Positions 3,487 to 33,836 of a stretch of 36,567 bases of DNA are shown here, piece after piece. Position 1 is the stretch's first letter. Every line of letters begins with the position of its first letter. A program made the translations under genes and the position numbers. The stretch comes from Phytohabitans maris (lineage in GTDB: Bacteria > Actinomycetota > Actinomycetes > Mycobacteriales > Micromonosporaceae): positions 1-36,567 of the forward strand of contig NZ_JAVHUY010000073.1 of NCBI RefSeq assembly GCF_031085175.1. The letters run 5' to 3'. The notes under the pieces are model-generated. The model saw only the letters and a program-made list of their open reading frames with translations. It made no database searches and was not told where the DNA came from.

Positions 3487-4100
3487 TGCTGAGCGCCGTG
3501 CCATCCCGCAACACCCCACCGCCGGCCGCCCCCACCGACGCGGGCTCGCCCCGGCGGGCCGAGCTGCTGGCGTCGGCGTACGCGTACGCCATCGAGCACG
3601 GGCTGGCCGACCTTTCGCTACGGCCGCTGGCCGCCGCCACCGGGACGAGCCCGCGGGTGCTGCTGTACCTGTTCGGGTCCAAGGACGGCCTCGTGCGCGA
3701 GATCCTCGCCCGCGGCCGCCAAGAGCAGCTCGCCTTCGTCCACCGGCTCGCCGCCGAACCCGTCGAGCCGAGCGCGGACCGGTACCCGCACGTGGTGGAC
3801 CGGCTCTGGCAATGGGCGAGCGCACCGCGGCGGCGGGGGCTGATCCGGCTCTTCTTCGAGGCGTACACCCGCTCGGTCGCACCCGAGCCGGGCCCCTGGC
3901 GGGGCTACGCCGAACAGTCCATTCAGGACATCGTCGACGTCCTCGTCGCCGCGCAGCCGGACGTGCCGCCGGAACGGGCCGTCGCGCGGGCCACCCAGAC
4001 CCTCGCCCTGCTGCGCGGCCTCCTGCTCCACCTCCTCGCCCGGGGTGACCGGCAGCAGCTCGGCCGGCTCCTACGCGACGCCGTCCGCGCCGGGCTCTGA
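3486..4100 (+). CDS. TetR/AcrR family transcriptional regulator
   Basis: A 204-residue regulator with an N-terminal TetR DNA-binding domain. The helix-turn-helix lies at about residues 42-63 (LSLRPLAAATGTSPRVLLYLF), followed by the typical GSKDGLVREIL segment, and then an all-helical ligand-binding part of about 130 residues. The ligand is unknown. It is divergent from the SDR gene and the palindrome at 3465-3486 is the likely shared operator, giving autoregulation plus SDR repression. The ATG at 3486 overlaps that palindrome and has no clear Shine-Dalgarno, so the message may be leaderless there; GTG at 3498 is an alternative start. Its last 30 bases overlap the convergent NACHT gene. Confidence 0.9.
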   Translation: MLSAVPSRNTPPPAAPTDAGSPRRAELLASAYAYAIEHGLADLSLRPLAAATGTSPRVLLYLFGSKDGLVREILARGRQEQLAFVHRLAAEPVEPSADRYPHVVDRLWQWASAPRRRGLIRLFFEAYTRSVAPEPGPWRGYAEQSIQDIVDVLVAAQPDVPPERAVARATQTLALLRGLLLHLLARGDRQQLGRLLRDAVRAGL

Positions 4101-6482
4101 CCGCGGCGGCCCGGTCTTCGGCGCCCTCGCCGAACGGTGGGTCCGGGCGAGGTGGTCCTGCAGCCGGGCGTGGCGGAACTGGTAGACGGAGCCGACGACG
4201 CGCAGCACGTTGCGCTGGTGGGCGTCCTCGAGGAAGTGCATGCCGCGGGCCGGTCCGTCGCCGCGGGCACGGAGCTGGAGGAAGAGCAGCGTGCCGCGCC
4301 ACGTGCTGGAGACGGTGAGCGCCGCGGCGACCGTGGTGGCGATACCGACCGCGACGCCAGTGACGACGCCGACGGGGATCGCGACGCGCGGCGGGTCGTG
4401 CCGGGCCATCGCCATCGCGTCGGTGACGCCGGCCGCGACGCCCACCGCGAGGCCGAAGACCAGGCCGGCGGTGACGCTGCGCCGCCGGTCCTGGCGCCAG
4501 GCGGAGATCGGGTCGAGCGGCGCGGCCACGTCCAGGGAGGCGGCGGAGAAGCCGTCGACGAGGCCGAACGCGAGCAGGAACGTCACGCCGATGACCAGGC
4601 CGATGACGAGCCCGGCCGGCGCGCCGTAGCCGAGCCCGACCGGCACGCCGGTGGCCAGCCCGATCGGGATACCGGTGGCGAGGCCGGCGGGCAGCCCCTG
4701 GGTGAAGCCGGCGCGCAGGGTGCCGGCCGCCCCGGCCTGCGGGGGCAGGGCCGAGCCGCTGCGCTGCAGGCCGGTCTGCGAGGCGAGCCCGGTGGCGGTG
4801 CCGGCGGCCGCCGCGGCGGCGAGCGCGATGACCAGGCCCGGCGCGCCGACCGTGGGACCGAGGGTCAGCGACGCGGCGAGCCAGACCGCGATGCCGGAGA
4901 CCAGCGCCATCGCCGGGTTGAACCGGGCGCCGGCCGGGCCGGTGAGGCCGCCGACCGGCGACTCCCGGCGCTCCACCGCCAGCCCGATCGCGAACCCGAT
5001 CACCAGGCCCACGATCGCGGCCGGCCCGGCGTCGATGGTGTCGCGGTCGCCGAAGTCCTCGGTGAGCCCGCCGATCACGGCCGCCGTCGCCGCGGCGGTG
5101 AGCGCGCCGAGCAGGGTGGTGGCGGCGACCCGTACGGCGGCGGACGCCCAGCGGTGCATCCGCCACCAGGCCAGCTCCCGCGTGCCCTCCCGGTCCATCG
5201 CGGTGGCCAGGAAACCCAGCCAGCGGCGGGCGTGCGCCAGGTCGTACCGGCCGGGTGGCTGGCCGGGGCGCTCCCGGTACGCGGCGGGCAGCACCCGGTC
5301 GAGCAGGTGGTCCTCGACCTCGGCCGGGCTCGCGAACCGGTCGGGGGCGAGCAGCTCGTCGAGCTCGTCCGGGTCCGGGAACGTGTCCCGGGCCAGGCTC
5401 ACCGTCAGCGGCGAGGCGAGCGCCTGGGCCAGCGGGCTGCCCGGCGCCGCGCGCAGCCGGTCGACGAGCCGCCGCCACTGCGGTGAGGGCTCGGCGACGT
5501 GCAGCCGGGCGAGGTAGTCGGCGGCGACCCGCGGCGGTACCGGGCGAAGTGCGAGCGCCGCCGCGCCGCGCAGGCTGGCGCGGCGGACCGCCTCCGCGTA
5601 CTCCTCGGTGCGGCTGAACAGCACCACCCGGGAGGTGGCCCGCTCGCTGAGCACCTCCAGCGCGACCGGCCGGAACGCCGCCGCCAGCTCGTCGAAGCCG
5701 TCGAGGAACAGCGCCACCCGCCGCTCCCGGACCAGCCGCCGGGCCACGTCCGGGCCGTACTTGGGGGCGCGCAGGAACCGGAAGTCGCTGGCCAGCCGCT
5801 CGGCGACCCAGTCTTCCAGGCTCTGCCGCCGCGGGTCCCAGGTCTGCGCGGTCAGCAGTACCGGCACGGGCACCTGGGCGCGCTCGCCAGCGGCCACGCC
5901 ACGGCGATGCTCCAGCGCCTCCAGCACGGTCAGGATCGCCGCCCCGGACTTGCCGGCACCCGGCCCGCCGAGGACCACCATCCGGCCGGAGCTGAGCCCC
6001 GCGTACACCGCGAACAGCTCGGGCAGGCCGCCGGAGCGCACGGTGGCGGCGGTCGCCGCCGCGGTCCCGGGCAGCGGCGGGAACCGTCCGTGCGCCAGCC
6101 CGCCGGCCTGACCGACCGCGTCGTCGACCCGCCCGCTCAGCGGCCGCGACCACGCCCACCGGACCGGGATCGGGCCGCGCAGCCGCCGGTCGGCCAGGGC
6201 CGGCTCCCACTGCCGCGACACCGCCTCGGCCAGGTCGTCGGCGGCCTCCGCCAGCGCCGCGGACGGGTCCAGCCCGCGCCAGTGCCGGCGCCGCCACAGC
6301 GACGTCGCGGCCGCGGTGACCAGCCCGGTCAACAACGTGGACGCCACCGAGACGACGGCGGCGACCACCTGCGGGTCGCCGCCGGCCACCATCACCACGA
6401 CAACGGCGGCGGCGCCCAGGACGAGCGCCAGGAATGCGAGCCCGGCCAGCGGCCACGGTCGCAGGCGTTCCGAGCCCGGCAT
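4071..6482 (-). CDS. Membrane-anchored NACHT-type STAND NTPase
   Basis: An 803-residue protein. Two hydrophobic segments at about residues 12-33 and 38-62 anchor the N terminus. The NTPase core has Walker A GGPGAGKS at 172-179 and Walker B VALFLDGFDEL at 257-267, the latter with the DGFDE form typical of NACHT proteins, then a sensor-like SRTEEY. From about residue 430 to 720 there is a long run of Gly/Ala/Val-rich hydrophobic helices (at least seven). The end reads RNVLRVVGSVYQFRHARLQD, a pattern known from actinobacterial NACHT proteins. Some bacterial NACHT proteins act in phage defence; this one has no effector domain I can name, so its role is open. Tail-to-tail overlap with the TetR gene is 30 bases. 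The ATG at 6482 is the first plausible start and precedes the membrane segment. Confidence 0.85.
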   Translation of the reverse strand: MPGSERLRPWPLAGLAFLALVLGAAAVVVVMVAGGDPQVVAAVVSVASTLLTGLVTAAATSLWRRRHWRGLDPSAALAEAADDLAEAVSRQWEPALADRRLRGPIPVRWAWSRPLSGRVDDAVGQAGGLAHGRFPPLPGTAAATAATVRSGGLPELFAVYAGLSSGRMVVLGGPGAGKSGAAILTVLEALEHRRGVAAGERAQVPVPVLLTAQTWDPRRQSLEDWVAERLASDFRFLRAPKYGPDVARRLVRERRVALFLDGFDELAAAFRPVALEVLSERATSRVVLFSRTEEYAEAVRRASLRGAAALALRPVPPRVAADYLARLHVAEPSPQWRRLVDRLRAAPGSPLAQALASPLTVSLARDTFPDPDELDELLAPDRFASPAEVEDHLLDRVLPAAYRERPGQPPGRYDLAHARRWLGFLATAMDREGTRELAWWRMHRWASAAVRVAATTLLGALTAAATAAVIGGLTEDFGDRDTIDAGPAAIVGLVIGFAIGLAVERRESPVGGLTGPAGARFNPAMALVSGIAVWLAASLTLGPTVGAPGLVIALAAAAAAGTATGLASQTGLQRSGSALPPQAGAAGTLRAGFTQGLPAGLATGIPIGLATGVPVGLGYGAPAGLVIGLVIGVTFLLAFGLVDGFSAASLDVAAPLDPISAWRQDRRRSVTAGLVFGLAVGVAAGVTDAMAMARHDPPRVAIPVGVVTGVAVGIATTVAAALTVSSTWRGTLLFLQLRARGDGPARGMHFLEDAHQRNVLRVVGSVYQFRHARLQDHLARTHRSARAPKTGPPRSEPGADGVA

Positions 6483-8951: not shown

Positions 8952-10718
8952 CTACTCAGCGATGCTGGTCGTCGTTTCGGATCCGGTCGGCTGCGTAGGT
9001 GTCGTGCCAGTAATCTCGACCTTGCTGGCCGCCGCGATGGCGGCGTGGCTCCGCTGTTGAAGCTCTTCGCGTTCGGCGTCTGGGATAGTCATCGACTCGG
9101 CGAGCACGGCGGCAAGCGTGTCCACCTGGGTGTTGTCGATGTCGACCTGGAAGTGCCATCGGATGTTCTCGTCGCGGGTGATGAGGTCGATCGCCGTGCG
9201 TGAGCTTTTGTCCTGGCTGGTCGCTGCTCGGACGTATCGCACCTGGTCGATCGGGATTTCCTGCCGGATCTCGCCCTGCTCGAGGAATGTGTTGGTCTTG
9301 GCAGTGATGACGCGGCGATCGGTGACGGCGACAAGTGTCTTCGCGGGTGCCTTGTCCCTCGCTGCTGCCAGCTTCCCCATCGCTCCGTTCAGGATCGAGG
9401 AGAGGGGATCGGAAGCATCGGGCTGATCGGGAAAGCCGAGGACGCGGAGGGTCTCGCCGTCATCGAGGAACCACCGCAGAATACGCAGGTACGGGTTGAG
9501 ATCCAGCGTTTCGGGTGCGCAGACGGCGTCCGGCACCTCCAGCGGAGGGGCCGGCGGGCGGAGGGCATCGGCGAGCGGCTGGATCGCCTCCAGCAGACCG
9601 GCGGAGGTTTGGCGGACCGCGGCCGAGTCCTTTCGCTTGCCCGACAGCGGCAGTGTGCCGCGTCCGGGGAGCTCAACGATGATGCGTAGTTCCCGGGTCA
9701 GCGCCTCGACGAGGCCGGTCGCCTCGGGGAGAGCGGAGTCGAGCGCCGCGCGGGTGTCGCGCGCGATGACCTCGACGAGGCGTGCCTCGTCGGCGTCTTC
9801 GGCTCCAGCGGCTCTAGCCCGCGCGGCGTGCAGCGCCTGATATCCGGTCCATGCCTTAAGTGACGACAGCAGGGCGTGTGCGTCGAAGAGGATCGCCTCG
9901 GCGTTCGTCTCGAGATAGGCACGGCGGCCCTGTGTGTTGTGACGGATCTGTCGGATGTGATCGCTGACATTCAGCCGGTACAGGTCACACTGCTTACGCA
10001 GAGCCGGTTCCGTGCCCGCGACGCTGTTCCACAAGGAGGTGGGAACCGATTCGATCTCTCGCGCCTGGCCGACCGCGCGATCGATGCTGGCGACGAGCGC
10101 CGTCAGTTCGGCCCACTGCTCGTGGCGGATGGTCGTGAGTACCTGGTTTGTCAGGGCGATGTTGGTACGGGCGAGGCTGGCAACCTCACTGAGCTGCATC
10201 TGCAGGGCGATCATGGCTAGTGCTGGCCCGAGCGTGGCCGCGAGCTGCGCCGCGCCCACCGCAGTCACCGGGATGAGCCGTGCCTGACCGACGATCCTGC
10301 CGTTGGCGAAAATCGCGCCGAGGTTCGCGCCGTCCTTGACCGCGAGCGTTCCGCCGGCCTTCAGTAGGGCCTGTGTCGTGCTGCTGAGCCGGTAGAGTCC
10401 CTGTGCGCTGGCGAATGCGTTCCCGAGGTTACCGGCCACGGTCGCGGTGTTGCCGATTGAGGCGAGAAATGTGGAGATCTGCGTGCGGTCGGTGGCCGGC
10501 ACGAGCCCGAAATCAATCAAATCGAGCTTGAGTACCGCGGGGACCTCGCCGAAGACGACAGCAACTCCCGGGAGCACCTCCGCCAGGACCGTCGATGCCG
10601 TCGTCGAATCGACGTCCGAGTCGGGTGCCGGTTTGTCCACAACGGGCGACTCGACGGTTTTGCGCTGACCGTTCTCCTCAGGCACCGCGCTCTCCATCGA
10701 GTCCGAAGGGTCTTGCAT
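8952..10718 (-). CDS. Unrecognised protein with C-terminal PH-like domain
   Basis: A 588-residue protein I cannot assign to a named family. The N-terminal 45 residues are acidic and disordered-looking (MQDPSDSMESAVPEENG). Residues about 45-180 are rich in Ala, Gly and Leu, with a hydrophobic stretch GAAQLAATLGPALAMIALQM at about 155-174 that could be a membrane helix or an amphipathic hairpin. A long helical middle part follows. Residues about 462-540 look like a bacterial PH domain (LVAVTDRRVITAKTN, IPIDQVRYVRA). The start at 10718 is chosen because a strong ribosome binding site sits just before it; the frame is open further upstream to 10982 but that part does not look coding. It is monocistronic and divergent from the defence cassette. 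A membrane- or stress-associated role is a guess only. Confidence 0.75.
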   Translation of the reverse strand: MQDPSDSMESAVPEENGQRKTVESPVVDKPAPDSDVDSTTASTVLAEVLPGVAVVFGEVPAVLKLDLIDFGLVPATDRTQISTFLASIGNTATVAGNLGNAFASAQGLYRLSSTTQALLKAGGTLAVKDGANLGAIFANGRIVGQARLIPVTAVGAAQLAATLGPALAMIALQMQLSEVASLARTNIALTNQVLTTIRHEQWAELTALVASIDRAVGQAREIESVPTSLWNSVAGTEPALRKQCDLYRLNVSDHIRQIRHNTQGRRAYLETNAEAILFDAHALLSSLKAWTGYQALHAARARAAGAEDADEARLVEVIARDTRAALDSALPEATGLVEALTRELRIIVELPGRGTLPLSGKRKDSAAVRQTSAGLLEAIQPLADALRPPAPPLEVPDAVCAPETLDLNPYLRILRWFLDDGETLRVLGFPDQPDASDPLSSILNGAMGKLAAARDKAPAKTLVAVTDRRVITAKTNTFLEQGEIRQEIPIDQVRYVRAATSQDKSSRTAIDLITRDENIRWHFQVDIDNTQVDTLAAVLAESMTIPDAEREELQQRSHAAIAAASKVEITGTTPTQPTGSETTTSIAE

Positions 10719-11635: not shown

Positions 11636-12802
11636 GTGATGGCCCGCCCTCCGGCCGGGCGATTGTCACTCCCATCGGTGGCTCGTCAGAATGGGCGCGG
11701 TCTTCTCATGTTAGGCGAGCCGTTGGCCTTTTCTCTCTCGGAGATTCCGACTGATCGAGTGGTGTGGATTGAATGCTTCCAGCCGAACGACTTGGACCTC
11801 GCGGTAGCGGAGGCGCCGCTCGACGCTCCGGCGGTCATTGTCCAACGAACGGCACGGTCCCGGAGTCAGAGCGCGATGGTCGGCTCCATCCTGGACGAAA
11901 TGGAGGCGGTCGCCGGGCAACTCTTTCCTGCTTGGCTTCCTGAAGCTGAAGGCATCGCGGGCTCGGCTGGTGCCGCCTTGACCGCCGTCCGTGCGCTCGC
12001 TTTCGCCCATGCCGCGCGCACCGCTCAGTACGGTCCCTTTCTCGCCGACTTGGCGGCAGGTGCCTTGGCAGGACGGGGGCCACGTACGCGGCGGCATCAA
12101 CCCGAGGTTCGCGCGCTTGGGCTGGCGCGGGTGCTCGCAGCCAGCTTCGGGCGGCCGGCCTGCGCGTTGCTTTTGCAACCGCCCGGCGGTCTCGATGAGC
12201 ACGAAGTGCTGTGTCTGGTACGGGCAGCGCAGTGGTTGGTCGATCATGGCCGGTTGGCGGTGTGGATCTGCGGTGGGGCGCTGCCGGACCTCGATGGGTT
12301 GTCGGAAGTCGCGGTGGCGTCACAAGTGCGGCAGGCCTCGGTTGCAGTACCTGGTTCGGAAGGCCCAGGCGTCCGACCCACGGAGCCGACCGGAGGGCGC
12401 CCGCGTGAGGGTAGTTCAGCTGGCAAGCGACGGGGTCTCGGTGTCGTCGGCAAGCCTCATCCGACGAGCCGCGCCGAAGTGGTGCTTGAGGCCGTGCTTG
12501 CTGATCGGCCCTGGGCGACCGGTCGGGCCTGGAACCACACCGTCCGGCCGGGGCCGCTGGTCAATCCTGTCCGAGTCGACCTGCTGTGGAAACGGGAGCG
12601 GTGCATTGTGGAAATCGACGGAGATGACCATCGCGCAGCAGGAAAGTACGCCGATGATCGCCGCCGCGACGTGATGCTCCAACTCAACGGGTACGCCGTA
12701 CTTCGCTTCACTAACACGCAGGTCCTCGATGACATCGAGAACGTACTCGCACTTCTTCAACAGTTTCTCGCCAATCGCAGGCGGGCCGGGAAAGGAAACT
12801 AA
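11636..12802 (+). CDS. PD-(D/E)XK/DUF559-like nuclease protein of a three-gene cassette
   Basis: Up to 388 residues. The last third (about residues 275-380) resembles the Vsr/DUF559 branch of PD-(D/E)XK nucleases: SRAEVVLEAVL, then VRVDLLWKRERCIVEIDGDD with the metal-binding Asp and Glu-x-Asp, a His, and the helix-strand RRRDVMLQLNGYAVLRFTNT. The N-terminal 250 residues (FSLSEIPTDRVVWIECF, then AVRALAFAHAARTAQYGPFL) are not recognised. Starts are uncertain: GTG/ATG at 11636/11639, or ATG at 11708 giving 364 residues; none has a good ribosome binding site. The stop is one base before the GTG of the next gene, so the three genes form an operon. It is likely the DNA-cutting part of the cassette; metal dependence and substrate are inference. 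Confidence 0.72.
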   Translation: MMARPPAGRLSLPSVARQNGRGLLMLGEPLAFSLSEIPTDRVVWIECFQPNDLDLAVAEAPLDAPAVIVQRTARSRSQSAMVGSILDEMEAVAGQLFPAWLPEAEGIAGSAGAALTAVRALAFAHAARTAQYGPFLADLAAGALAGRGPRTRRHQPEVRALGLARVLAASFGRPACALLLQPPGGLDEHEVLCLVRAAQWLVDHGRLAVWICGGALPDLDGLSEVAVASQVRQASVAVPGSEGPGVRPTEPTGGRPREGSSAGKRRGLGVVGKPHPTSRAEVVLEAVLADRPWATGRAWNHTVRPGPLVNPVRVDLLWKRERCIVEIDGDDHRAAGKYADDRRRDVMLQLNGYAVLRFTNTQVLDDIENVLALLQQFLANRRRAGKGN

Positions 12803-12803
12803 C

Positions 12804-13469
12804 GTGCCGGACGAAGACTTGACGAGGGTCGAGACGGCTGCGCTCTTCATCCTCATGGCCGAGGCAGGGCCGGTTCCCAATGCGAGGTTGACCAACCACC
12901 ACCGCTGCGGGTTGAAGAAGCCGTCTCGGGAGAAGCTGGAGCGGTTGAAGCTGATCGAGGTCGAGCGCCCCTCCGGTCGGCTCATGCTGATGCTGGGTGA
13001 CGAGGGCTGGGTGCGCTGCCGCAGCCAGCTTGAAGGTGGCTCGCCGCCGCCCGGTGCGGGTGCTGTTGGCGGGGCGCTCTACGCGGTACTCCAGCTGTGG
13101 GGTCGTTTCCTGGCGGCGCAGCGGTCCAGTCTCCAGGAGTTCGTTTCCGCTTCGAACGCCCCCGCCCCGACCGTCGCGCCAGCCCGGAAACCGGCGGCGG
13201 TCGAACAGGACGTCGAGGAGCGTGTGCGCGCGGCGTACCGGACGATCGCCCATCGCGCCGGCGACCTGGTGAGCCTCGCCGACCTGCGTGATCTGGTCAG
13301 CGACCTCGCCCCGGCCGAGGTCGACGCGGCGTTGCGCCGGCTCAACCGCCGGCGGGGCGTAGCCCTCGTGCCCGAAGCCAACCAGAAGACGCTCGACGCG
13401 CGTACACGGGCCGCTGCGGTGGTGATCGGCGACCAGCCCAAGCACTCGATCTCGGTGGAGGCGTCGTGA
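12804..13469 (+). CDS. Small protein with predicted winged-helix parts, cassette middle gene
   Basis: A 221-residue protein with no family I recognise. The N-terminal part (TAALFILMAEAGPVPNARL, REKLERLKLIEVERPSGRLM, LMLGDEGWVRC) reads like a helix-turn-helix plus beta wing. A Pro/Ala linker (about residues 115-140) leads to a second small domain: VRAAYRTIAHRAGDLVSLAD then LRDLVSDLAPAEVDAALRRL, followed by the short strand VALVPEANQ, again like a winged helix. The GTG at 12804 is preferred because it follows GGAAAGGAAAC and starts right after the nuclease stop; the frame is open further upstream but inside the nuclease gene. Its end overlaps the ATPase start by four bases (GTGA). A DNA-binding or adaptor role between nuclease and ATPase is inference. 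Confidence 0.7.
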   Translation: MPDEDLTRVETAALFILMAEAGPVPNARLTNHHRCGLKKPSREKLERLKLIEVERPSGRLMLMLGDEGWVRCRSQLEGGSPPPGAGAVGGALYAVLQLWGRFLAAQRSSLQEFVSASNAPAPTVAPARKPAAVEQDVEERVRAAYRTIAHRAGDLVSLADLRDLVSDLAPAEVDAALRRLNRRRGVALVPEANQKTLDARTRAAAVVIGDQPKHSISVEAS

Positions 13470-16400
13470 CCGAGGCGATGCTGAAGGCACTCGCGCACCT
13501 CCAGTTCAACTACACGCCGACCAGGAACGACGTCTGGCACTCCCCGCGATTCCACGTCGACGGCCTCCACACGGACGTGCTCGCGACCGTCCTCGACGGC
13601 TTGGCTACGGCCGAGCGGAGCCCGGATGCCAGCCCCATCGGCGTCGCGGTGCGGGGTCAACGCGGTGCGGGTAAGACCCATCTGCTCAGCCGGGTGCGGG
13701 AGCTGACCCAGCTGAGGGGAGGCTACTTCTTCCTGGTCAATCTGCTCGACGCCAACACGTTCTGGCGCAGCGTCACGGCGTCTATCGTGGATGGCTTGCA
13801 CCAGCCGGTCGATGGCGAGGGTACGACGCAGCTGCACGCGTTTTTGGAACGCCTAACCAACGCGCTCGACCTTCCGGTTGTGACCAGGATGGCGGTCACG
13901 GGTCGGGCACCGATGACACCGGATCGGGCGGATGCGTTCGTGGCCGCTCTGGGCGGCATGAGTCGCCAGATCGGGATCGGGTGTCGGGACGCCGCCCGCG
14001 CATTGGCCCTACTCGCCAGCCCTGACCAGCGCGTGCAGGACATCGGGATGTCATATCTGCTCGCGGCGGACGAGGCGGAAACCGGTGAACGGGCCGCGTG
14101 GGGTATCCGGCCGACGCGGCGGCTGCCCCAGGAGCTCGTCTCCGACGTGTCCCGGCTCCTCGCGTTCACTGGCCCTTCGATTATCGCAGTGGATCAGGTC
14201 GACGGCCTCATCGCACAAGTGGCGAACCGGAGTCACGTCTCCGCAACGCCCACCGAGAACGACACGGACAGCTGGCACGCGGCGGTCCTGCTCGACCAGG
14301 TGGCGGGCGGTCTGATGGAGCTGCGCGAGCTGACCTGGCGTACGGTGACCGTTCTCGCGTTGTTGCCGGTGTCCTGGTCGTTGATCAAGACCAACGCGGT
14401 CGACACCGTACAGGACAGGTTCCGCGAGACAGCCACGCTTGAGTCGATCCCGGACGCCAGCGTCGGCAGGGCCCTGATCGAACGCCGACTCGCCGCGCAC
14501 TACGAGGAGGTGGGGTTCGCGCCGCCGTACCCGACCTGGCCGGTGCGACCCGAAGCGTTCGCCGACGCCCCCGACTTCACGCCGCGACAGCTGCTCATCA
14601 ACGTCGAACGGCACATCCGCTCGTGCGTGCTCAGCGGTGAGGTCACCGAGATGACCACGCTCACAGCCGCCGCCGAGACATTGGTGCCAGCGCCAATGTC
14701 GGCCGACCGGTCGTCGCTACGACCGCTTGACGAGCGGTACGCGGCGCTGCGGGAACAGGCGCAGATAGACGGGTTGCTCGACCCGGCGAGCGAAGACACG
14801 GAGATACCGTCCCTGCTGGCCGCCGCGCTGGACGCGTGGATCAGGGAGGGCGCCGACACCGACTTCGATCAAGACACGATTCCGGTCCGCAAGCCGGTGC
14901 TGCACGCACGCCTGCGGCGGACGCTGGACGAGCGGACCGGGGATGAGGCCCACTGGGCGTTCCGAGCCATCGCGGCACAGCATTACAACGCCGAGCTTGC
15001 CCGACTTCGCAACGCATGCGACGCCGCCGGCCTGGCGCACGGTGTCGCCCAGCGGCGGCTCTTCATCCTGCGGAATGAGGAATGGTCGGAGAGTCCCGGG
15101 CGGCGCAAAGCGGTAGAGGCGTTCGTCGCGGCTGGCGGGCGTACGCTGCCGCTCGGCGAGGACGACCTGCGCAGCCTGGTCGCGCTGCGGACGTTGCTTG
15201 CCGAGGAGCCGGACGGCCTACAGGCCTGGCTGGTCGAGCGACGCCCAGCTTCGAGCACTGCCTTGCTGGCGACCGCGCTCGCCGACGCTGGACGCGAGAT
15301 ACCCGCCGGGGGCGTGCCGCACGGAATGGGAGAGTCATCAGTGCCGCCTGCCGCCGGCGACGCTGATGCCTTCGCCGCCGAGGTGGTTCCGGCAGAGGCA
15401 AGTCCGGCGGACGCGAAGGCGCCTGTCACCCAGATCAAGGAGTTCGGTGAGCCGTCGGGCGCCCCTGCGGAGCCTGTGGCCGCGGCTACGCCCGCCGGGG
15501 TGTATCTCCGGTTGGGCGACGACTTTGACCAGGGCGACCCCATCCACGTGGAGCTGTCCGCACTGCGCAAGCACACCGCCATCTTCGCTGGCTCGGGATC
15601 GGGCAAGACCGTCCTGATCCGGCGGCTGGTCGAGGAATGCGCGTTGCTGGGCGTGTCCGCTATCGTGCTCGACCCCAACAATGACCTCGCCCGCCTCGGC
15701 GACGCCTGGCCGGACGAGCCGCACACGTGGGGCGACGCCGACGAGCAGGCGGCAGCCGACTACCTCGAGTCGACGGACGTCGTGGTCTGGACTCCGGGGC
15801 GGGAGGGCGGACGGCCGCTGACCTTCCAGCCCCTTCCCGACTTCAGCGGCGTATGCGACGACCCCGACGAGTTCACGCAGGCCGTCGACAGTGCGGTCGA
15901 CGCGCTGGCGCCGCGCGCACAGGTGTCCGCCAATACGGCCAAGGCGCTGCGCGGCCAGGCGGTGCTCCGTCAGGCATTGCGGCACTACGGCCGTCAGGGT
16001 GGGCCGGCTACCCTCAGCGGCCTGATCGATCTGCTGCGGGACCTCCCGGACGGGGTGAGCGAGCTGACCGGCGCGGTGGCGATCGCTGCTGACCTGGCGG
16101 AGAATCTGGAGGCCGCCCGGATCAACGACCCTCTCTTCGGCGGCACCGGCGAGTCGGCGGACCCCGGCACGCTGCTGACACCGGCTCCGGGCAAGCGCGC
16201 CCGGGTGTCGGTCATCAGCTTCGTCGGGCTTCCGGGCGACGAGAAGCGGCAGGGTTTCGTCAACCAGCTCCAGATGGCCCTCTTCTCCTGGATCAAGCGC
16301 AACCCGGCGCGCGATCGGCCACTGGGCGGACTGCTTGTTATGGACGAGGCGCAGACGCTCGCACCGTCCGGCCCGGTCACAGCGTGCACCCGCAGCACGC

Positions 16401-16762
16401 TGATGCTGGCCTCCCAGGCTCGCAAGTACGGCCTCGGCCTCATTTTCGCCACCCAGGCACCCAAGGGATTGCACAGTCAGATACCTGGCAACGCGGCGAC
16501 GCAGTTCTTCGGGCTCCTCAACGCGCCAGTGCACATCGAGGCAGCCCGCGAGATGGCCCGTTTCAAGGGCGGCGACCTGCCAGAAATCTCGCGCCTGAGC
16601 AGTGGGCAGTTCTACGTCGCTGTCGAGGGGCAACCGTTCCGCAAGGCGCGGACGCCACTGTGCCTCAGCCACCACCCCGCAAGTCCGCTGTCTCCAGAGG
16701 ACGTCATCGCTCGCGCCCGGCGGCTAGCGTCCCCTTCGGACGATGCGGCGACACCTGTATGA
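13466..16762 (+). CDS. Dual ATPase: N-terminal AAA module and C-terminal HerA/FtsK-like module
   Basis: A 1098-residue protein. The N-terminal module has Walker A GQRGAGKT at residues 64-71 and Walker B-like IIAVDQVDGL at about 235. A helical middle part and an Ala/Pro-rich linker (about 620-680) follow. The C-terminal module is HerA/FtsK-like (DUF87 type): LGDDFDQGDPIHVELSALRK, Walker A GSGSGKT at about 710-716, IVLDPNNDL, Walker B LLVMDEAQTL at about 956-965, then LASQARKYGLGLIFATQAPK and the oligomer-contact region. HerA proteins are hexameric DNA translocases and act with nucleases in several defence systems. The GTG start overlaps the upstream stop. Its own stop is 62 bases before csb1, so read-through into the cas operon is possible. 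Two full NTPase modules in one chain is unusual for HerA partners. Confidence 0.82.
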   Translation: MTEAMLKALAHLQFNYTPTRNDVWHSPRFHVDGLHTDVLATVLDGLATAERSPDASPIGVAVRGQRGAGKTHLLSRVRELTQLRGGYFFLVNLLDANTFWRSVTASIVDGLHQPVDGEGTTQLHAFLERLTNALDLPVVTRMAVTGRAPMTPDRADAFVAALGGMSRQIGIGCRDAARALALLASPDQRVQDIGMSYLLAADEAETGERAAWGIRPTRRLPQELVSDVSRLLAFTGPSIIAVDQVDGLIAQVANRSHVSATPTENDTDSWHAAVLLDQVAGGLMELRELTWRTVTVLALLPVSWSLIKTNAVDTVQDRFRETATLESIPDASVGRALIERRLAAHYEEVGFAPPYPTWPVRPEAFADAPDFTPRQLLINVERHIRSCVLSGEVTEMTTLTAAAETLVPAPMSADRSSLRPLDERYAALREQAQIDGLLDPASEDTEIPSLLAAALDAWIREGADTDFDQDTIPVRKPVLHARLRRTLDERTGDEAHWAFRAIAAQHYNAELARLRNACDAAGLAHGVAQRRLFILRNEEWSESPGRRKAVEAFVAAGGRTLPLGEDDLRSLVALRTLLAEEPDGLQAWLVERRPASSTALLATALADAGREIPAGGVPHGMGESSVPPAAGDADAFAAEVVPAEASPADAKAPVTQIKEFGEPSGAPAEPVAAATPAGVYLRLGDDFDQGDPIHVELSALRKHTAIFAGSGSGKTVLIRRLVEECALLGVSAIVLDPNNDLARLGDAWPDEPHTWGDADEQAAADYLESTDVVVWTPGREGGRPLTFQPLPDFSGVCDDPDEFTQAVDSAVDALAPRAQVSANTAKALRGQAVLRQALRHYGRQGGPATLSGLIDLLRDLPDGVSELTGAVAIAADLAENLEAARINDPLFGGTGESADPGTLLTPAPGKRARVSVISFVGLPGDEKRQGFVNQLQMALFSWIKRNPARDRPLGGLLVMDEAQTLAPSGPVTACTRSTLMLASQARKYGLGLIFATQAPKGLHSQIPGNAATQFFGLLNAPVHIEAAREMARFKGGDLPEISRLSSGQFYVAVEGQPFRKARTPLCLSHHPASPLSPEDVIARARRLASPSDDAATPV

Positions 16763-16824: not shown

Positions 16825-18057
16825 ATGCGTTCGTTGGATCTTGCCACCTTGCTCGCCGCCGGGGCGCCGGGTGGGTCGAGTTGTCTCACGTCGACGACGT
16901 CGCTGGAGCCGGCTGGTGGGCGGCACGCTTCGGTCGCGCCGGCCAAGTTTGCCGAGCGCGGTAAGAAGGGCGGCTCGTACGCGTACGAGCAGCGTTACCT
17001 CGGTGAGGAGAGTCGCTACGCGGTCGTGATCGACTCGAAGCAGTCGCAGCTCAACCGTGCCGAGCAGGCGCTGGCGCAGGCCATCGAGGACGGACACCCG
17101 CTGCTGTCGCGTGTGCCGCATGTGCGGGTCAGCTACGAGCGGGACGGTGCACTTGAGCACTACTACGATCTCACGCTGCCGCACCGGGTGTTCGACGGGC
17201 ACATCCGCGCTGGCACGATCGACGGGCAACCGACCACGCAGACCGAGACGTACCGCTCTGTCCGGGACGCGACTCCGGCCAACGCCCGGGCATTGCTTGA
17301 GACGAGCCCGGTGACGCTTGTCTTCGGTGGGTGGGATTCGAGCCGGCGCAGCCGGCAGGGGCGCTGGCGGAGCGCGTTGGTTGGGGAGATCGTGGGCTTC
17401 GTCGCGGCCAGTCGCGACGAGCATGGTGTGCTGACCAAGCCCGAGCCTGGCGTGCGTGGTGGGGCACGAGTCGACCCGGTCGGCATGCAGATCAACCTGG
17501 GCAAGAAGGTGATGACCGAGACGGCAGAACGGCAGCGGGAGGAACTCAGTCCGGCCACCTATGACGGCATCGTCAAGACGGCTGCCGGAATCAAACCCGG
17601 TGACGCGAAGTCGGCGTCCGTGCTCGGCCTCGGCGGGATCCCGCCGACGTTGGACCAGTTGGCGGGCGTCGCCTGCGACACCATCATCCGTACGCACGTG
17701 CTCTCCTTCGCCACGCTCCGGCAGATGCGGTTCGGGGCCGGTGTGGAGGGTGACGCGGCGTGCCGGGCGTTGTTGGCCGCATTGGCGCTCGATGCGCTTG
17801 CCCGGTCCGATGCTGAGCTCTACCTGCGGGCCAACTGCGATCTCGTCGAGGCGGAGGCGCCGAAGGTTCGGCTCGACCAGCGGGGCGGCGCGTTCCTGGA
17901 GGTCGAGCCGCTCAGCATCGACGCGGCTGACCTGCTGCTGAGCGAGGCGCTTGCGCATGCCGAGAAGGTTGCCGACGTCAAGTGGTCCGGGCTGGCGATG
18001 CGGGTCACCGGCAACCCGGACATCGTCTCCGGTGCGGTAGACGCGGACGAGAACTGA
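16825..18057 (+). CDS. csb1: Type I-G (I-U) CRISPR-associated protein Csb1 (Cas7 backbone)
   Basis: A 410-residue RAMP-type Cas7 protein that forms the crRNA-binding backbone of the type I-G Cascade. Family traits are the early Ala/Gly-rich block SLEPAGGRHASVAPAKF, EQRYLGEESRYAVVIDSKQS (the DSxQSQxNR motif continues directly), HRVFDGHIRAG, VTLVFGGWDS and the Arg-rich turn RRSRQGRWRSALVGEIVGF. The C-terminal third contains the LRQMRFGAG/AALALDALARSDAELYLRA region. The length is usual for Csb1. It is the first gene of the cas operon, and its stop overlaps the csb2 start by one base (TGATG). No damage is seen. Confidence 0.93.
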   Translation: MRSLDLATLLAAGAPGGSSCLTSTTSLEPAGGRHASVAPAKFAERGKKGGSYAYEQRYLGEESRYAVVIDSKQSQLNRAEQALAQAIEDGHPLLSRVPHVRVSYERDGALEHYYDLTLPHRVFDGHIRAGTIDGQPTTQTETYRSVRDATPANARALLETSPVTLVFGGWDSSRRSRQGRWRSALVGEIVGFVAASRDEHGVLTKPEPGVRGGARVDPVGMQINLGKKVMTETAERQREELSPATYDGIVKTAAGIKPGDAKSASVLGLGGIPPTLDQLAGVACDTIIRTHVLSFATLRQMRFGAGVEGDAACRALLAALALDALARSDAELYLRANCDLVEAEAPKVRLDQRGGAFLEVEPLSIDAADLLLSEALAHAEKVADVKWSGLAMRVTGNPDIVSGAVDADEN

Positions 18058-19574
18058 TGGGGTTCGCCATTGTCGCCGAGCCACTGCTTGGCGTCTACAA
18101 GGGACATGTGGGCAGCGGGCAACTCGACCCGCTGCCGTCGCCGGCCAGGCTGCACGCCGCCTTGCTCTGCGCGGCGGCGCAGGGTGTCCGGGCGGTCGCC
18201 GACGGAGACGGGCTACAGCCCTGCGACGCCGACCGTGAAGCGTTGCGCTGGCTGGAGGCGAACCCACCGGACGGCATCGCCACGCCGGAGACCCTGCGCA
18301 ACGGGGGCGCCGCGACGGCATACCGGAAAGAGGGCTTGGTCGTCAAGGAAGGCCGCAGCCCGTTGTCGGAGAAGCTGATCGGCAAGCCGGCGGTGAGCGG
18401 CGTCGCGGTGGCCGGGCGGTTCGCGTGGACGTGGGACCAGGCTCCGCCCGAGCCGGTCGCCGCCGCGCTGGCCGAGCTCTGCCCTGAGGTGCCATATCTG
18501 GGGACCAGTGAGTCGCCGGTGCGGCTCGTGGTGGCCGAGGCCGAGCCGACCCACCGGCTCGACCGCGAGGCCGACCTGTTCACCGGGAAAGGCCTGGATC
18601 TCGCGGTGGCCACCACCGGTCGGGCGGACGCCCTTGTGGCAGCGCATCGAGAGGCGTTGGTGGCGCCGCCGTTGAAGGCCGACGCGCACAGGTCAAGCGA
18701 GAAGACCGTACCGCCACCGCTGGTGACAGCCGGTCTCGACCTCGGCCGGTACGCACGTCCGGAGCCGCCGCCCCCGCCGACGCCGTGGGCATCGGTGCTG
18801 CTCCTGCGGGTCGACCAGCCCATCCCGCCGGAGCGGCGGGTGCGGTGTGCGGTTGCCGTGCACCGCACGCTTATCGCGCTCGTTGGCGACGGCGCACCCG
18901 CGATCCTGACCGGCGTCTACGAACCCGGGGTGCCACGCCCGGCCAACCGGTGCGCGATCCAGTTCCTCGGCCCCGACGCGCCACACATCGGTGGCACCGC
19001 GCTCGCGTTGCTGCTGCCGCGGGAGGCGAGCGATGTCGACCTCACTCTGATCAGAATGGCGGTGCAGCGGCTGCGGCGCGTCCGAGTCGCCGCCGGTCCG
19101 TTCAACGTCGAGCAGCCGGTGGAGATCCCGGCCGACAGGTTCTGGCCGGAGCCGTCCGCCGGCACCGAACGGTGGTGGGACACGGTGCCGGTCGCCGTGC
19201 CCGACAGCAGGCCGCCGCGTGGTGGTCGCTGGTCCCTCGCCGACGCTGCGGCGCTGTCGGTGGCGCTGGTCTGGCGGCACGAGTTCACCGCATCCGGTCG
19301 CGGCGACGCGCGCTACCGGGCGCTGGCCGAGGCGGCCGCCGGGCGTGGCGTCCGGGTCGAGTCGGCGGTACGGGTGATGGACGGCGATGCCGGCCGCTAC
19401 GTGCACAAGGTGCACCCGGACACGGTGATCCAGCCGTACCGGGCGGTGCTGGGCCTCGGTGACCTGGCCGGGCCCCGCACGATCGCCGCCATCGGGCAGA
19501 GCCGGCACCTCGGTGGAGGGCTGCTCGTGCCGAGAGACCTGCCGTCCGAGATCGCGCGAAGGCTGGCCCGATGA
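18057..19574 (+). CDS. csb2: Type I-G (I-U) CRISPR-associated protein Csb2 (Cas5/Cas6-like)
   Basis: A 505-residue RAMP protein. In type I-G the Csb2 family combines the Cas5 role (holding the crRNA 5' end) with a Cas6-like part that cuts the precursor crRNA; no separate cas6 exists here, which agrees. The N terminus MGFAIVAEPLLGVYKGH starts with the RAMP beta strand, followed by PSPARLHAALLCAAAQG typical of Cas5-like proteins. The C terminus has the glycine-rich element SRHLGGGLLVPRDLP. A frame open upstream to 17982 lies inside csb1; the ATG at 18057 overlapping the csb1 stop is the sensible start. Which histidines cut RNA cannot be read safely from sequence alone. Confidence 0.92.
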   Translation: MGFAIVAEPLLGVYKGHVGSGQLDPLPSPARLHAALLCAAAQGVRAVADGDGLQPCDADREALRWLEANPPDGIATPETLRNGGAATAYRKEGLVVKEGRSPLSEKLIGKPAVSGVAVAGRFAWTWDQAPPEPVAAALAELCPEVPYLGTSESPVRLVVAEAEPTHRLDREADLFTGKGLDLAVATTGRADALVAAHREALVAPPLKADAHRSSEKTVPPPLVTAGLDLGRYARPEPPPPPTPWASVLLLRVDQPIPPERRVRCAVAVHRTLIALVGDGAPAILTGVYEPGVPRPANRCAIQFLGPDAPHIGGTALALLLPREASDVDLTLIRMAVQRLRRVRVAAGPFNVEQPVEIPADRFWPEPSAGTERWWDTVPVAVPDSRPPRGGRWSLADAAALSVALVWRHEFTASGRGDARYRALAEAAAGRGVRVESAVRVMDGDAGRYVHKVHPDTVIQPYRAVLGLGDLAGPRTIAAIGQSRHLGGGLLVPRDLPSEIARRLAR

Positions 19575-22315
19575 GCCTCGACCGCGCCGACTTCGACGCC
19601 TTCTTCACCGCTGTCTATGGTGGACATCGGCCGTTCCGATGGCAGGATAGACTGCTCGACCACATCCTCCACACCGGACACTGGCCCGACCAGCTCGTCG
19701 CCCCTACCGGAGCCGGCAAGACGAGCGTCATCGACGTGCACGTGTTCGCGGTGGCCCTGATGGCCGCCGGCCACCCGGTCCGGGTGCCGCGCCGGCTGGC
19801 GCTCGTCGTCGACCGCCGTGCTCTCGTCGATGACCAGTACGAGCACGCGAGGTTCGTCGCGAACCAGCTGGCGGATGGCCGCGGAGGCGCGACCGTCCTC
19901 GCCCGGATGGCCGATGCACTGGACTCGCTGCGTGTACGGCGGAAAGGGCCGGCCGACCCCCCACTGTGGACGGCACTGCTGCGCGGTGGCGCGCAACCGT
20001 CCCGGGAATGGCTGGACGACCCGGTCAGCTGCGCCGTGCTCTGTGCCACGCCCGACATGTGGGGCTCACGGCTGCTGTTGTCGGGATACGGATCGCGGCG
20101 GCAGGCGTGGCCCCGCGAGGCCGGTCTGCTCGCGTACGACACCGTCGCCGTCGTCGACGAGGCGCACCTGTCGCAGCAGCTGGTGACCACCGCCCGCCGG
20201 GTCGCTGAGCTGGCCGACGTCGTGGAGGAGCCGCTCGGCGCGCCGGTCCTGCAGGTCGTGGAGACCACCGCCACGCCCCGCACCGACGCTGGTGTGGCAG
20301 TGGGCGTCGAACCGGGCGACGTGGAGGTGGACGAGCCGCTGCGGCAACGGCTGACCGCGCCCAAGCCGGTCACGCTGCTGCCACTCGCGTCCTGGCCGAT
20401 CCCACCCAGCGGATCGGCCCGGAAGGCGGGCGTCACGGCGCTGGCGGACGAGGCGGTGCGGCTGCGCCAGGAGTACGGCTCGACGGTCGGGTGTTTCGTT
20501 AATACCGTCGCGGTCGCGGCCGCCGTGGACGAGGAGCTGCGAACGCGGGGCATGGCGACCGCGCTGGTCTGCGGGCGGCTGCGGCCCTACGACGTTGCCC
20601 GCCTGCGGCCGCCGAAGTCGACGCTGCTCAGCATCGGCGGCGACCCGGCGGTCGACGTCCTCGTCAGTACCCAGACATTGGAAGTCGGGGTTGATCTCGA
20701 CCTGGCGGCCGCGGTGACAGAGCTGGCGCCCGGTGGGGCCATCGCCCAGCGGGCCGGCCGGGTCAACCGGCTCGGACTGCGCACGACGACGGCCATCTCC
20801 GTCGTGGTGCCGGCTGCCGAGCTGCCCGCCAACGAGCGGCTCGGGCAGCCGTACCGGCGTGATGACCTGGTGGCGGCCCACACCTGGCTGGCGCAGCGGC
20901 AGTCCGATCCGGCTGGCCTCGCGCCGTGGGCACTGCGCGACCCCCGGCCGCCGGTGCCGGCGTTGCGCCGGGACCTGCTCCAGCGCCTGGAACTGGCCCA
21001 GGCGTGGCACCTCGCCCGGACCAGCGACGACCTTGCCGCGCCCCAGGACGACCTCGACCTGTGGCTCTCCGATGACCTCGACGAGCCCGACCACGAGTTC
21101 GGCATCGTCGTCCGGCGCGACCTACCAGACGACGAGGCCGACGCGGTGAGCCTGATCGAGGCACTTCCGCCACGGGAGTACGAGGTGTTTCCGGTCTCGA
21201 TCAGGAAGGCGGCGACGATCCGGGCCCGTCTGAAACCGGGCTCGGTGCTGGTCCGCCCCGGCGACGACCAGCCGCGCCCGCTCACCGACGACGACCGGCT
21301 CCGGCCCGGCGACCAGATCGTCATTGACAGCACCACCGAGCTGTTCACCTCCAGGGTCGTCGACCCGGACGGCAAGGAACGGGTCGACGACGTGCTCGAT
21401 GCGCTCGACGAACCGAAGCCGGGCGAGGTCGTGCTCCGGATCGAGCGAGGCATCGCCGCTCACCGCCGTCTCCTCGATGCCGTGGCCGCCGCTGCCGACC
21501 ACCCGGATGAGCTCGACCCGCGGGAGGTCGCCCGGCTGCTTCGCGTACACCGTGAGGAGCTGGCGCCGCGCCCGATGGTGGTGGTGGCGGCCGACCTGCT
21601 CGACCGATCTGAGGACGAGCCGGCCGGTGCCGAGATGAGGTTGTACTGGCAGGAGCGCGACGACGGCGAGCCAGAGCTCGGTCGGCTGATCGTGGTCGAC
21701 CTCCGTAAGGCGACCGCCGACGCGGAGCTGCGGGAGACGTGGACGCCGCGCCGCAGGCCGGTCCCTCTTCGCCGGCATTCCGAAGCGGTGGCGGAACGGG
21801 CCGAGGCCGTCGCCACCCGGCTCGGCCTCGACACCGGACTGGTGGAGACACTGCGCCTCGCGGGGCTTCACCATGACGACGGGAAGGCGGACGACCGATT
21901 CCAGCGTTCGCTGCGCCACGGCCCTGTCCTCGAGGAACCGTTGGCCAAGAGCGGCCTGCGGGACCTGCGGACGATCCGGCGGCTGCGCACGGCCTCCGGC
22001 CTACCGACCGGTTGGCGGCACGAACAGCTCTCGGTGGTCCGCGCCTGGCCAGAACTGTCCACACTGGATGACAAACGCCGAGACCTGGTGGCTCGGCTGA
22101 TCGGTACCAGCCACGGCCATGGCCGGCATGACTTCCCGCACACGAGTGAGCAATTGGTCGGCGGCGCCGACGAAGTCGCCGTCACGCTGTTCGACGAGGG
22201 TTCGTGGGACGAGCTGATCGAACGTACACACAACTGTTGGGGCGTGTGGGGCTGTGCCTACCTGGAGGCGCTGCTCCGCGCGGCCGACGGGCAGGTCTCC
22301 GCGGAGGGGTCATGA
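19571..22315 (+). CDS. cas3: CRISPR-associated helicase/nuclease Cas3 with C-terminal HD domain
   Basis: A 914-residue Cas3 that unwinds and degrades target DNA after Cascade binding. The SF2 helicase comes first: Walker A APTGAGKT at 44-51, DEAH-type VVDEAHLSQQ at about 193-202, TTATPRTDAG, a second RecA lobe with TLEVGVDLD and QRAGRVNRLG (motif VI). The HD nuclease is at the C terminus: RRHSEAVAERA, LAGLHHDDGKADDRF at about residues 765-779, GTSHGHGRHDFPH and the ending WGVWGCAYLEALLRAADG. This helicase-then-HD order is the hallmark of type I-G/I-U; most type I Cas3 have HD first. Start and stop are both four-base ATGA overlaps with neighbours. Confidence 0.95.
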   Translation: MSLDRADFDAFFTAVYGGHRPFRWQDRLLDHILHTGHWPDQLVAPTGAGKTSVIDVHVFAVALMAAGHPVRVPRRLALVVDRRALVDDQYEHARFVANQLADGRGGATVLARMADALDSLRVRRKGPADPPLWTALLRGGAQPSREWLDDPVSCAVLCATPDMWGSRLLLSGYGSRRQAWPREAGLLAYDTVAVVDEAHLSQQLVTTARRVAELADVVEEPLGAPVLQVVETTATPRTDAGVAVGVEPGDVEVDEPLRQRLTAPKPVTLLPLASWPIPPSGSARKAGVTALADEAVRLRQEYGSTVGCFVNTVAVAAAVDEELRTRGMATALVCGRLRPYDVARLRPPKSTLLSIGGDPAVDVLVSTQTLEVGVDLDLAAAVTELAPGGAIAQRAGRVNRLGLRTTTAISVVVPAAELPANERLGQPYRRDDLVAAHTWLAQRQSDPAGLAPWALRDPRPPVPALRRDLLQRLELAQAWHLARTSDDLAAPQDDLDLWLSDDLDEPDHEFGIVVRRDLPDDEADAVSLIEALPPREYEVFPVSIRKAATIRARLKPGSVLVRPGDDQPRPLTDDDRLRPGDQIVIDSTTELFTSRVVDPDGKERVDDVLDALDEPKPGEVVLRIERGIAAHRRLLDAVAAAADHPDELDPREVARLLRVHREELAPRPMVVVAADLLDRSEDEPAGAEMRLYWQERDDGEPELGRLIVVDLRKATADAELRETWTPRRRPVPLRRHSEAVAERAEAVATRLGLDTGLVETLRLAGLHHDDGKADDRFQRSLRHGPVLEEPLAKSGLRDLRTIRRLRTASGLPTGWRHEQLSVVRAWPELSTLDDKRRDLVARLIGTSHGHGRHDFPHTSEQLVGGADEVAVTLFDEGSWDELIERTHNCWGVWGCAYLEALLRAADGQVSAEGS

Positions 22316-23358
22316 CCGACTTTGTCCTGGCGGCCGCCGAACCGACGACGATGCTGTCGCACATGGCGCTGTACGGGCTCGCGGCGATCGTCGAGGACGG
22401 CGGCATGGAAGGCGTCCAGCTGGCGTGGACCGGTGGCATGGCGCCCCGACCGGTGCTCAGCGCACCTCAGGCCACACCCGAGACGATCGGCGAAGCCGTA
22501 CGCAGGCACGCGGCCCGGCACGACAGCCCGGAAAGCTGGCCGAGCCGGCAGGTCAGCGATGATGAGCAGCGGGCGCTGATGAGCCCGCGAATCAGCACCA
22601 TCACCAGTCGCGAGAGCTGGCGTTCGCTTCAGGAACGCCGGCACCAGGTGCTCCACCAGCTCACGCGGGAACGGGCGCTGCTCGACCTCCGGCTTGTCGC
22701 CGCGCTGGGAGAGCCGAGCTACTGGCGTTTCAACCGGCAGGGCCAGCGGCTCCAGGACGACGGTGCCAGCCGGCTGGAGATGCAGCCCCGAAACCAGGGG
22801 GCCGAGTTCGTGGGCAACCGGATCCGCCCACTCGCTGCGGCGGTCGCCGCCCGGACCGCCGCGGCGGTCAGCGACGGACTGCTCGGCCGGGGTGTGCGCG
22901 ACGAGATCGGCAAGGACGCGCAAGCCAGCCGTACGCCCACGGGCTTCGCCGCGCCGGGGCCGACCGACAACGCACTGGCCTGGTGCGCGCTGTGGGGCAT
23001 CTCGCAGTTCCCCGTCGCGCAACGCACACAGAGCTTCGCCTCCACCACAGGCCACATTGGACGAGGAACCGCCGGCTACTTCTACGTCCCGGTCTGGGAC
23101 GGAGCCTGGCGGACAGCTCGTCTGCGTACCATCCTCGCGAGTGGACAGCTCCGCCGGTTCGCCGAGACCGGCCTCTCCCCGGACGACATCCGGCGCGCTC
23201 CGGACGACGACGGGCGAGGCGGAGAGCCAGCCGGTCAATGGCTGGCCAGCCGCGGGGTCACCGCGGTCGTACGCTTCCCGGTGAAGCGGTTCGGCAGCGA
23301 CAGCGCACCCGAACGCCGTGCCATGCTCGGCGAGTTCGCCAAGACCGGCCGCCGCTGA
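22312..23358 (+). CDS. Small Cas8-like subunit (Csb3/Cas8u-type) of the I-G Cascade
   Basis: A 348-residue protein in the position of the Cascade large subunit. It begins MTDFVLAAAEPTTMLSHMAL then YGLAAIVEDGG, the form seen in Cas8-like I-U proteins, where a short N-terminal strand leads to a conserved helix. Further blocks are MEMQPRNQGAEFVGNRIRPL-like sequence in the middle (positions about 150-180), NALAWCALWGISQFPV and VTAVVRFPVKRFGSDSAPER at the end. Csx17-type Cas8 proteins of other I-G systems are, from memory, roughly twice this size, so this is a small version. The ATG at 22312 overlaps the cas3 stop; an upstream extension to 22204 lies inside cas3. Exact family name (Csb3 or another Cas8u) is uncertain; the role as PAM-reading/large subunit is inference from position. 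Confidence 0.72.
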   Translation: MTDFVLAAAEPTTMLSHMALYGLAAIVEDGGMEGVQLAWTGGMAPRPVLSAPQATPETIGEAVRRHAARHDSPESWPSRQVSDDEQRALMSPRISTITSRESWRSLQERRHQVLHQLTRERALLDLRLVAALGEPSYWRFNRQGQRLQDDGASRLEMQPRNQGAEFVGNRIRPLAAAVAARTAAAVSDGLLGRGVRDEIGKDAQASRTPTGFAAPGPTDNALAWCALWGISQFPVAQRTQSFASTTGHIGRGTAGYFYVPVWDGAWRTARLRTILASGQLRRFAETGLSPDDIRRAPDDDGRGGEPAGQWLASRGVTAVVRFPVKRFGSDSAPERRAMLGEFAKTGRR

Positions 23359-33687: not shown

Positions 33688-33836
33688 GGAGGCGTCCTGT
33701 CGGAAGACTGTTTGGAACGGCCAGCGCGAATATCTGTTGCATGCATAACCCCGAATTTCCGACGGGAGTACGAGCCCGAGGGTTATGTCGCTGACGGTCC
33801 GCCATACGTGCCCGACGTCAAGCGCGAGGCGCCTGC

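Follow-up and report, generated by a model that had tools for sequence, protein, structure and literature searches.

An AAA-HerA ATPase and winged-helix gene pair with exchangeable putative effectors beside type I-G CRISPR-Cas in Phytohabitans maris

In Phytohabitans maris, three adjoining genes precede a type I-G CRISPR-Cas locus. They lie in the stretch of DNA analyzed here (the window: 36,567 nucleotides, positions 1 to 36,567 of the forward strand of contig NZ_JAVHUY010000073.1, assembly GCF_031085175.1) and encode a putative effector nuclease (gene A), a winged-helix protein (gene B), and an ATPase in which an AAA+ module is fused to a HerA/FtsK motor (gene C). B and C form a near-fixed gene pair, mostly overlapping, and the effector of this B-C core is exchanged between loci, which is the new observation made here. 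With moderate confidence, we read A-B-C as a mobile-DNA interference system consisting of a constant B-C core and an exchangeable effector. Gene content suggests an anti-phage or anti-plasmid defense role for the trio; an earlier note on this DNA had supposed an anti-phage role.

The B-C gene pair and its distribution

In a survey of 151 genomes, including that of P. maris itself, C was matched in 68 genomes at the search threshold, strongly in 62 and in the other six only as a weak HerA-type hit. Among strong hits, B adjoins C in 77 of 80 cases, C adjoins B in 77 of 81, and long A hits adjoin B in 40 of 44. All four C exceptions turned out to have a B match alongside, three as weaker B rows and one in G004, where C is in two pieces. 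The three B exceptions are G004 again and two loci with B near an A fragment and no C (G055:C19 and G074:C1), which look like decayed loci. As for A, one exception lies at a contig end (G007) and three belong to the fragmented genome G032, where two adjoin a B or C fragment.

A larger set of 141 loci comprised the window, 60 loci from the 151 genomes, and 80 from a species-wide scan. These were the best 80 of at least 93 species-wide loci and, by their record titles, include 72 from Actinomycetota, six from Pseudomonadota, and one each from Acidobacteriota and Cyanobacteriota; the pair is thus chiefly actinomycetotal and rare in three other phyla. The span scanned around each locus comprised about 7 kb before and 9.5 kb after the C start, as far as the contig stretch extended. 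B lies within this span in 139 of the 141 loci; L153 and L169, where it was missed, are contigs some 4 kb long. Of 132 B-C pairs measured, 75 share 4 bases and 33 share 1 base. The earlier note had held that the three genes would have to be given up as a module if they did not co-occur elsewhere; they do recur together, although as a unit the trio holds only in part, B-C being nearly fixed and A one of several alternative partners.

Alternatively, the trio could serve a mobile element in DNA transfer or partition, with an ATPase of the coupling-protein or VirB4 type and a winged-helix protein of the plasmid type; we consider this explanation quite improbable. C was found in only 3 of the 72,556 plasmid records searched at E 1e-20 (one of these records is 11.85 Mb long) and in none of the 50,697 phage records searched at E 1e-5, which makes a role in transfer unlikely. 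No relaxase, type IV secretion system, or partition gene is found by Pfam among the 28 window open reading frames (ORFs) scanned, and a module of this kind would not be expected to swap TIR, AIPR, and nuclease partners.

Exchange of the effector

Partners were compared across 127 non-redundant loci with a C of more than 900 aa and less than 95% identity (nine short-C loci left out, five duplicates merged). Because the gene caller used for the relatives relies simply on composition and overlooks some genes, including A of the window, partners were counted by translated profile searches, using profiles derived from these same loci. To identify the effectors, one representative of each was scanned with Pfam and PADLOC. 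A is present in 62 loci, seven of which also contain csb1/csb2 and five a family termed F12. A WD40 protein is found in 12 loci (nine with a Trypco1 gene), PDC-M02 proteins in 11, AIPR/AbiU in 10 (one in common with PDC-M02), TIR pairs in nine, PDC-M55/Abi_2 in four, and F12 alone in three. The association with defense-type proteins that the earlier note expected is thereby borne out. A (62 loci) and the other effectors (45 loci) never occur together; random pairing would give this exclusion with a chance of 5e-19, a figure that makes the exclusion look stronger than it is, related loci being non-independent.

Partners follow the clades of C. In a FastTree tree of C, the WD40, TIR, and PDC-M55 groups each form one clade, of 12, 9, and 4 rows, respectively, and at least 10 partner changes are needed among the loci with a known partner. 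TIR and PDC-M02 pairs occupy the slot of A, just upstream of B. P. maris alone has three B-C copies with different partners: the window copy has A and CRISPR-Cas, L036 has A with F12, and L037 has PDC-M02 genes and, 6 kb downstream on the opposite strand, a weak AIPR match. L036 and L037 lie about 45 kb apart on contig C12.

Some of the partners can be described further. PDC-M02A matches its PADLOC model at 1e-40, and its DUF4365 match (23.5 bits) falls just under the Pfam cut-off of 24.3. In the WD40 protein, the WD40 repeats and the Trypco1 neighbor (E 2e-17) are evident; weak matches, together with the Trypco-trypsin pairing described in PMC7159879, suggest a trypsin-like N-terminus and an intervening STAND ATPase. 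F12 proteins (about 590-730 aa) give only weak TPR and nSTAND matches and precede A or replace it directly upstream of B (L036, L066, L073, L075, L087, L092, L114, and L117); F12 is possibly a further regulator or effector. Three families upstream of B were set aside as ordinary genes: F26 (pyridine nucleotide oxidoreductase), F16 (DUF72), and F172 (GFO/IDH/MocA oxidoreductase).

HerA together with a nuclease is a DNA repair pair of archaea. This precedent, and the membership of A in a DNA nuclease family, would fit a HerA-NurA-like module for DNA end resection or repair. Such a function is very unlikely given the patchy distribution, the presence of up to several different copies per genome, the failure to recognize NurA, and the use, in other clades, of TIR and WD40/Trypco1 proteins in place of the nuclease.

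Domain architecture of the three proteins

All three genes lie on the forward strand and are real genes under purifying selection. Against four relatives, the ratio of nonsynonymous to synonymous substitution rates (dN/dS) is 0.16-0.22 for A, 0.27-0.41 for B, which evolves fastest of the three, and 0.14-0.18 for C. The operon structure described in the earlier note was confirmed: the stop codon of A ends at 12802, one base before the GTG of B at 12804; B and C overlap in a GTGA at 13466-13469; and C stops 62 bases before csb1, which starts at 16825. The composition that the note proposed, a PD-(D/E)XK-like nuclease with a winged-helix protein and an AAA-HerA ATPase, likewise holds.

Gene A (11636-12802) encodes 388 aa when read from GTG 11636. 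Translation more likely starts at the in-frame ATG 11708, giving 364 aa, since the alignment of relatives begins near residue 25-40. An unclassified N-terminal domain precedes a DUF559 (PD-(D/E)XK-type) nuclease domain (12467-12715, about residues 278-360), for which the Pfam match covers residues 314-378 (E 1.5e-12) and the PDB profile match is the endonuclease-like 3hrl (E 1.8e-13). Residues D315, E326, D328, H332, D341, R344, and D345 are invariant in 35 of 35 sequences, and the first three mark A as a predicted active restriction endonuclease (REase).

Gene B (12804-13469, 221 aa, GTG start) has a structural model with a predicted local distance difference test score of 91. It begins with a winged helix (residues 1-78) and contains a second tri-helical unit with a wing at about residues 131-218. 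The protein gave no match in Pfam or PADLOC scans, and its model returned nothing below E 0.001 from Foldseek. A PDB sequence search gave one winged-helix row (4rs8, E 0.0036); calmodulin rows in the PDB sequences (E 0.0006 and weaker) were taken as compositional noise. VIA comparisons effectively covered only residues 2-78 of B and 676-1082 of C. A partial extra B, corresponding to the N-terminal part, lies beside B at G007:C574, G056:C3, and G069:C21 and hints at winged-helix duplication.

Gene C (13466-16762, 1098 aa, GTG start) encodes an AAA+ / alpha+beta / HerA fusion. The AAA+ module (13466-14635, residues 1-390) matches Pfam AAA_22 above the family cut-off (E 1.1e-8, residues 61-134) and, among PDB profiles, only generic AAA+ proteins (E 0.0009 and weaker). 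Across 53 rows its Walker A motif is kept, its Walker B motif reads DQxD, with Gln 244 invariant where the catalytic Glu is expected, and Arg 318 and Arg 374 are invariant. The HerA/FtsK ATPase (15491-16735, residues 676-1090) matches Pfam DUF87/HerA (E 1.3e-8, residues 692-757). Its SGSGKT and DEA motifs, R986, and Q997 are invariant over the same 53 rows, and the fold agrees; the roles of R986 as arginine finger and Q997 as sensor Gln were assigned from the description in PMC10853773. The Walker A lysines of the two ATPase parts are K70 and K714.

Between the two ATPases, an alpha+beta domain (14699-15283, residues 412-606) has the predicted order helix-b-b-b-helix-b-helix-b-helix. Such an order would suit an REase core; a D-ExK motif is not evident, and no typical winged helix is seen after the domain. 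Nuclease profiles gave no significant match (MspJI, E 0.22), nor did the nuclease domain of A, so that profiles do not support an assignment as REase; the best profile row, an adenylate cyclase toxin chain (E 0.019), was taken as noise.

Relationship to type I-G CRISPR-Cas

The cas genes that follow C lie outside the module. By Pfam and PADLOC, the type I-G (I-U) set on the forward strand (16825-25273) consists of csb1, csb2, cas3, an ORF at 22312-23358, cas4-cas1, and an ORF at 24971-25273 that is in the cas2 position and named by position only. A very long CRISPR array follows (25461-33688, forward strand) with 112 copies of a 36-bp repeat at up to 6 mismatches.

The trio could accordingly be an accessory part of this CRISPR-Cas system that, for example, processes or degrades target DNA after Cas3. 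Relatives of csb2 occur in 12 of the 151 genomes, in 10 of them at 74% identity or more, and nine of these 10 have the trio or a C remnant near csb2. The trio lies directly upstream of csb genes in the window, G003, G005, G020, G038, G063, and G067, and these seven adjoin csb1 on the same strand within a single C clade of eight rows (local support 100), the eighth being G028, with csb1 about 9.3 kb downstream. However, csb1 and csb2 are in the scanned span of only seven of the 62 A loci, while the other 55, G028 among them, have neither, so that the cas linkage is not constant. A is split between two frames in G005 (cas genes present), A and C are both broken in G063 (L069), and C is reduced to a fragment upstream of csb1 in G083 (L179); the cas genes persist and, in the latter two genomes, still give long matches. 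G025 (L180) has type I-G cas genes with no trio nearby, its B-C loci being elsewhere in the genome. The gap to csb1 also varies from 62 to about 570 bases, the broken G063 locus left out. A role as CRISPR accessory is therefore unlikely. The trio and the cas genes are co-inherited in one clade and obligatory in neither direction, as follows from a broken or absent trio beside cas genes and from trios without cas genes; the cas link on which the earlier note relied is real at the seven loci and not general.

In L180, csb1 is preceded by an F12-like protein (31% identity, E 1e-26) in the place of the trio. Between the metabolic genes of the window and the trio are two coding-like ORFs on the reverse strand, one of 803 aa (4071-6482) without a Pfam match and one of 581 aa (8952-10697) without a match in Pfam, PADLOC, or NCBIfam.

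Relationship to known systems

Window scans covered 28 ORFs with Pfam and eight proteins with PADLOC. The trio is not named as a system in Pfam, PADLOC, NCBIfam, or PHROGs, and literature searches, confined to the main texts of open-licence PMC papers and to the terms tried, listed none recognized as describing this operon. To that extent the earlier note was right that no named system has this layout, though the trio resembles a predicted class. Rakesh et al. (2024, PMC10853773) predicted Orc/CDC6-HerA/FtsK capture systems with an anti-invader role, whose operons are described as encoding an Orc/CDC6 ATPase that carries an inserted, inactive REase ahead of a winged helix, along with a HerA/FtsK ATPase, winged-helix proteins, and another REase that is active. 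Both combine, within one operon, an AAA+ ATPase and a HerA/FtsK ATPase with an REase and a winged-helix protein that evolves fast, and here the HerA/FtsK protein has the arginine finger and sensor Gln, the REase is predicted to be active, and the winged-helix protein is present. Of the Orc/CDC6 AAA+, by contrast, only AAA_22 and generic AAA+ profile matches are seen, and the counterpart of the inserted inactive REase, residues 412-606 of C, has a compatible order of elements and a profile match that is not significant. The two also differ in that the AAA+ and HerA parts form one conserved polypeptide here, the nuclease belongs to DUF559, and other loci have TIR, PDC-M02, AIPR, or WD40/Trypco1 proteins as effectors in its stead. 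The best reading is that the trio is a variant of the capture systems, compared by description, and overlap with the families of that paper is possible. The fused AAA-HerA chain, the Walker B Gln, and effector exchange were not found in the accessible portions of PMC10853773 and PMC12839542.

Other systems share fewer features. BREX-related capture (BRC) systems (PMC12839542) are likewise described with HerA/FtsK, an ORC/Cdc6-type ATPase, and winged-helix proteins, but their PglZ, DUF6079, DUF4007, GNAT, and TGT are not among the 28 window ORFs by Pfam. DUF4297-HerA and SIR2-HerA also join a HerA motor to an effector, a nuclease or SIR2; they consist of a plain HerA and one effector, whereas here AAA+ is fused to HerA and a winged-helix subunit is added. 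For DUF4297-HerA, assembly of the complex is reported to activate both enzymes and to defend against phage (PMC11291478). Pfam and PADLOC revealed no DUF4297, SIR2, or NurA partner, A being DUF559 and B giving no match. The SWI2/SNF2-like helicase, methylase-like, and REase parts of DndH from DndFGH are absent from C in a Pfam scan at E 0.1. In PADLOC, the HerA part of C matches mad8 of MADS best (E 7.7e-19), with no further mad protein among the eight window proteins scanned.

A proposed interference mechanism

By analogy with DUF4297-HerA and the capture hypothesis of PMC10853773, C would assemble as a hexamer, the resulting ring translocating double-stranded DNA. B might dock this ring on DNA or sense an invader-specific feature. 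The AAA+ module of C, with its invariant Gln for the catalytic Glu, would bind ATP, hydrolyze it poorly, and serve as a switch for assembly or activation. Once engaged, the ring would activate the effector, here leading to DNA cleavage by A; at other loci the output would probably be NAD+ loss (TIR) or another toxicity.

Several points weigh against this reading. Ring assembly, translocation, sensing, and activation are proposed by analogy, the hexamer and translocation solely so, and protection against phages or plasmids is deduced from the genes. No recognized effector lies in the scanned span of 17 of the 127 loci, 10 of which belong to one mycobacterial/rhodococcal clade (10 of its 19 rows, e.g., L111, L115, L119, L121, L135, and L145) where an effector family that is new or remote may be involved. 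Remote members of the partner families may also be hidden among the 17, since the profiles were built from the loci themselves, and partners can be missed where loci stop at contig ends. Most AIPR genes lie downstream of C, outside the slot of A, and WD40/Trypco1 and PDC-M55 genes lie upstream in divergent orientation, so some of these may be mere neighbors. A common docking domain was not found when the N-terminal part of A, the middle domain of C, B, and the A nuclease domain were compared with one another and with 11 partner families (profile comparison probabilities of 1.2% or less).

The wider neighborhood adds to these points. PADLOC (E 1e-10) was applied to 102 neighbors at 18 loci (20 were sampled, with no neighbors obtained from L040 and L053), with A, B, C, and csb1/csb2/cas3 removed, and to 102 of 140 proteins picked at random from the same genomes at a distance of roughly 90-210 kb. 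Neighbors matched 28 models and controls 52, with members counted per model and not per protein with any match. The 25 neighbor models shown include LmuB/LmuC, AbiEii, AbiU, PDC-M55A/B, Cmr4, and HEAT-ARM; the 25 control models shown are mostly PD-T4-6 and broad enzymes (mad6, GlgB, and subtilase), with mad3, MkoA, and PDC-M50A also present. The neighbors are not clearly richer in PADLOC families than the controls, and the defense-island setting cited in the earlier note lends weak support.

More tentatively, B-C could be a general immune chassis, in which a translocating sensor ring licenses unrelated effectors and the catalytically locked AAA+ module (Gln for Glu) acts as activation switch; it would then represent an unnamed defense family, widespread in Actinomycetota, to which three other phyla contribute outliers. 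Its effectors would include DUF559 or DUF4365-type nucleases, TIR, AIPR, and WD40/Trypco1-linked proteins, the latter probably of a protease-STAND type. We regard this extension as conceivable and somewhat doubtful. The known effector partners of HerA motors are few, namely SIR2 and DUF4297. A motor core that has repeatedly swapped effectors of different chemistry would offer comparable natural loci in which to ask how one DNA-sensing machine triggers unrelated killers.
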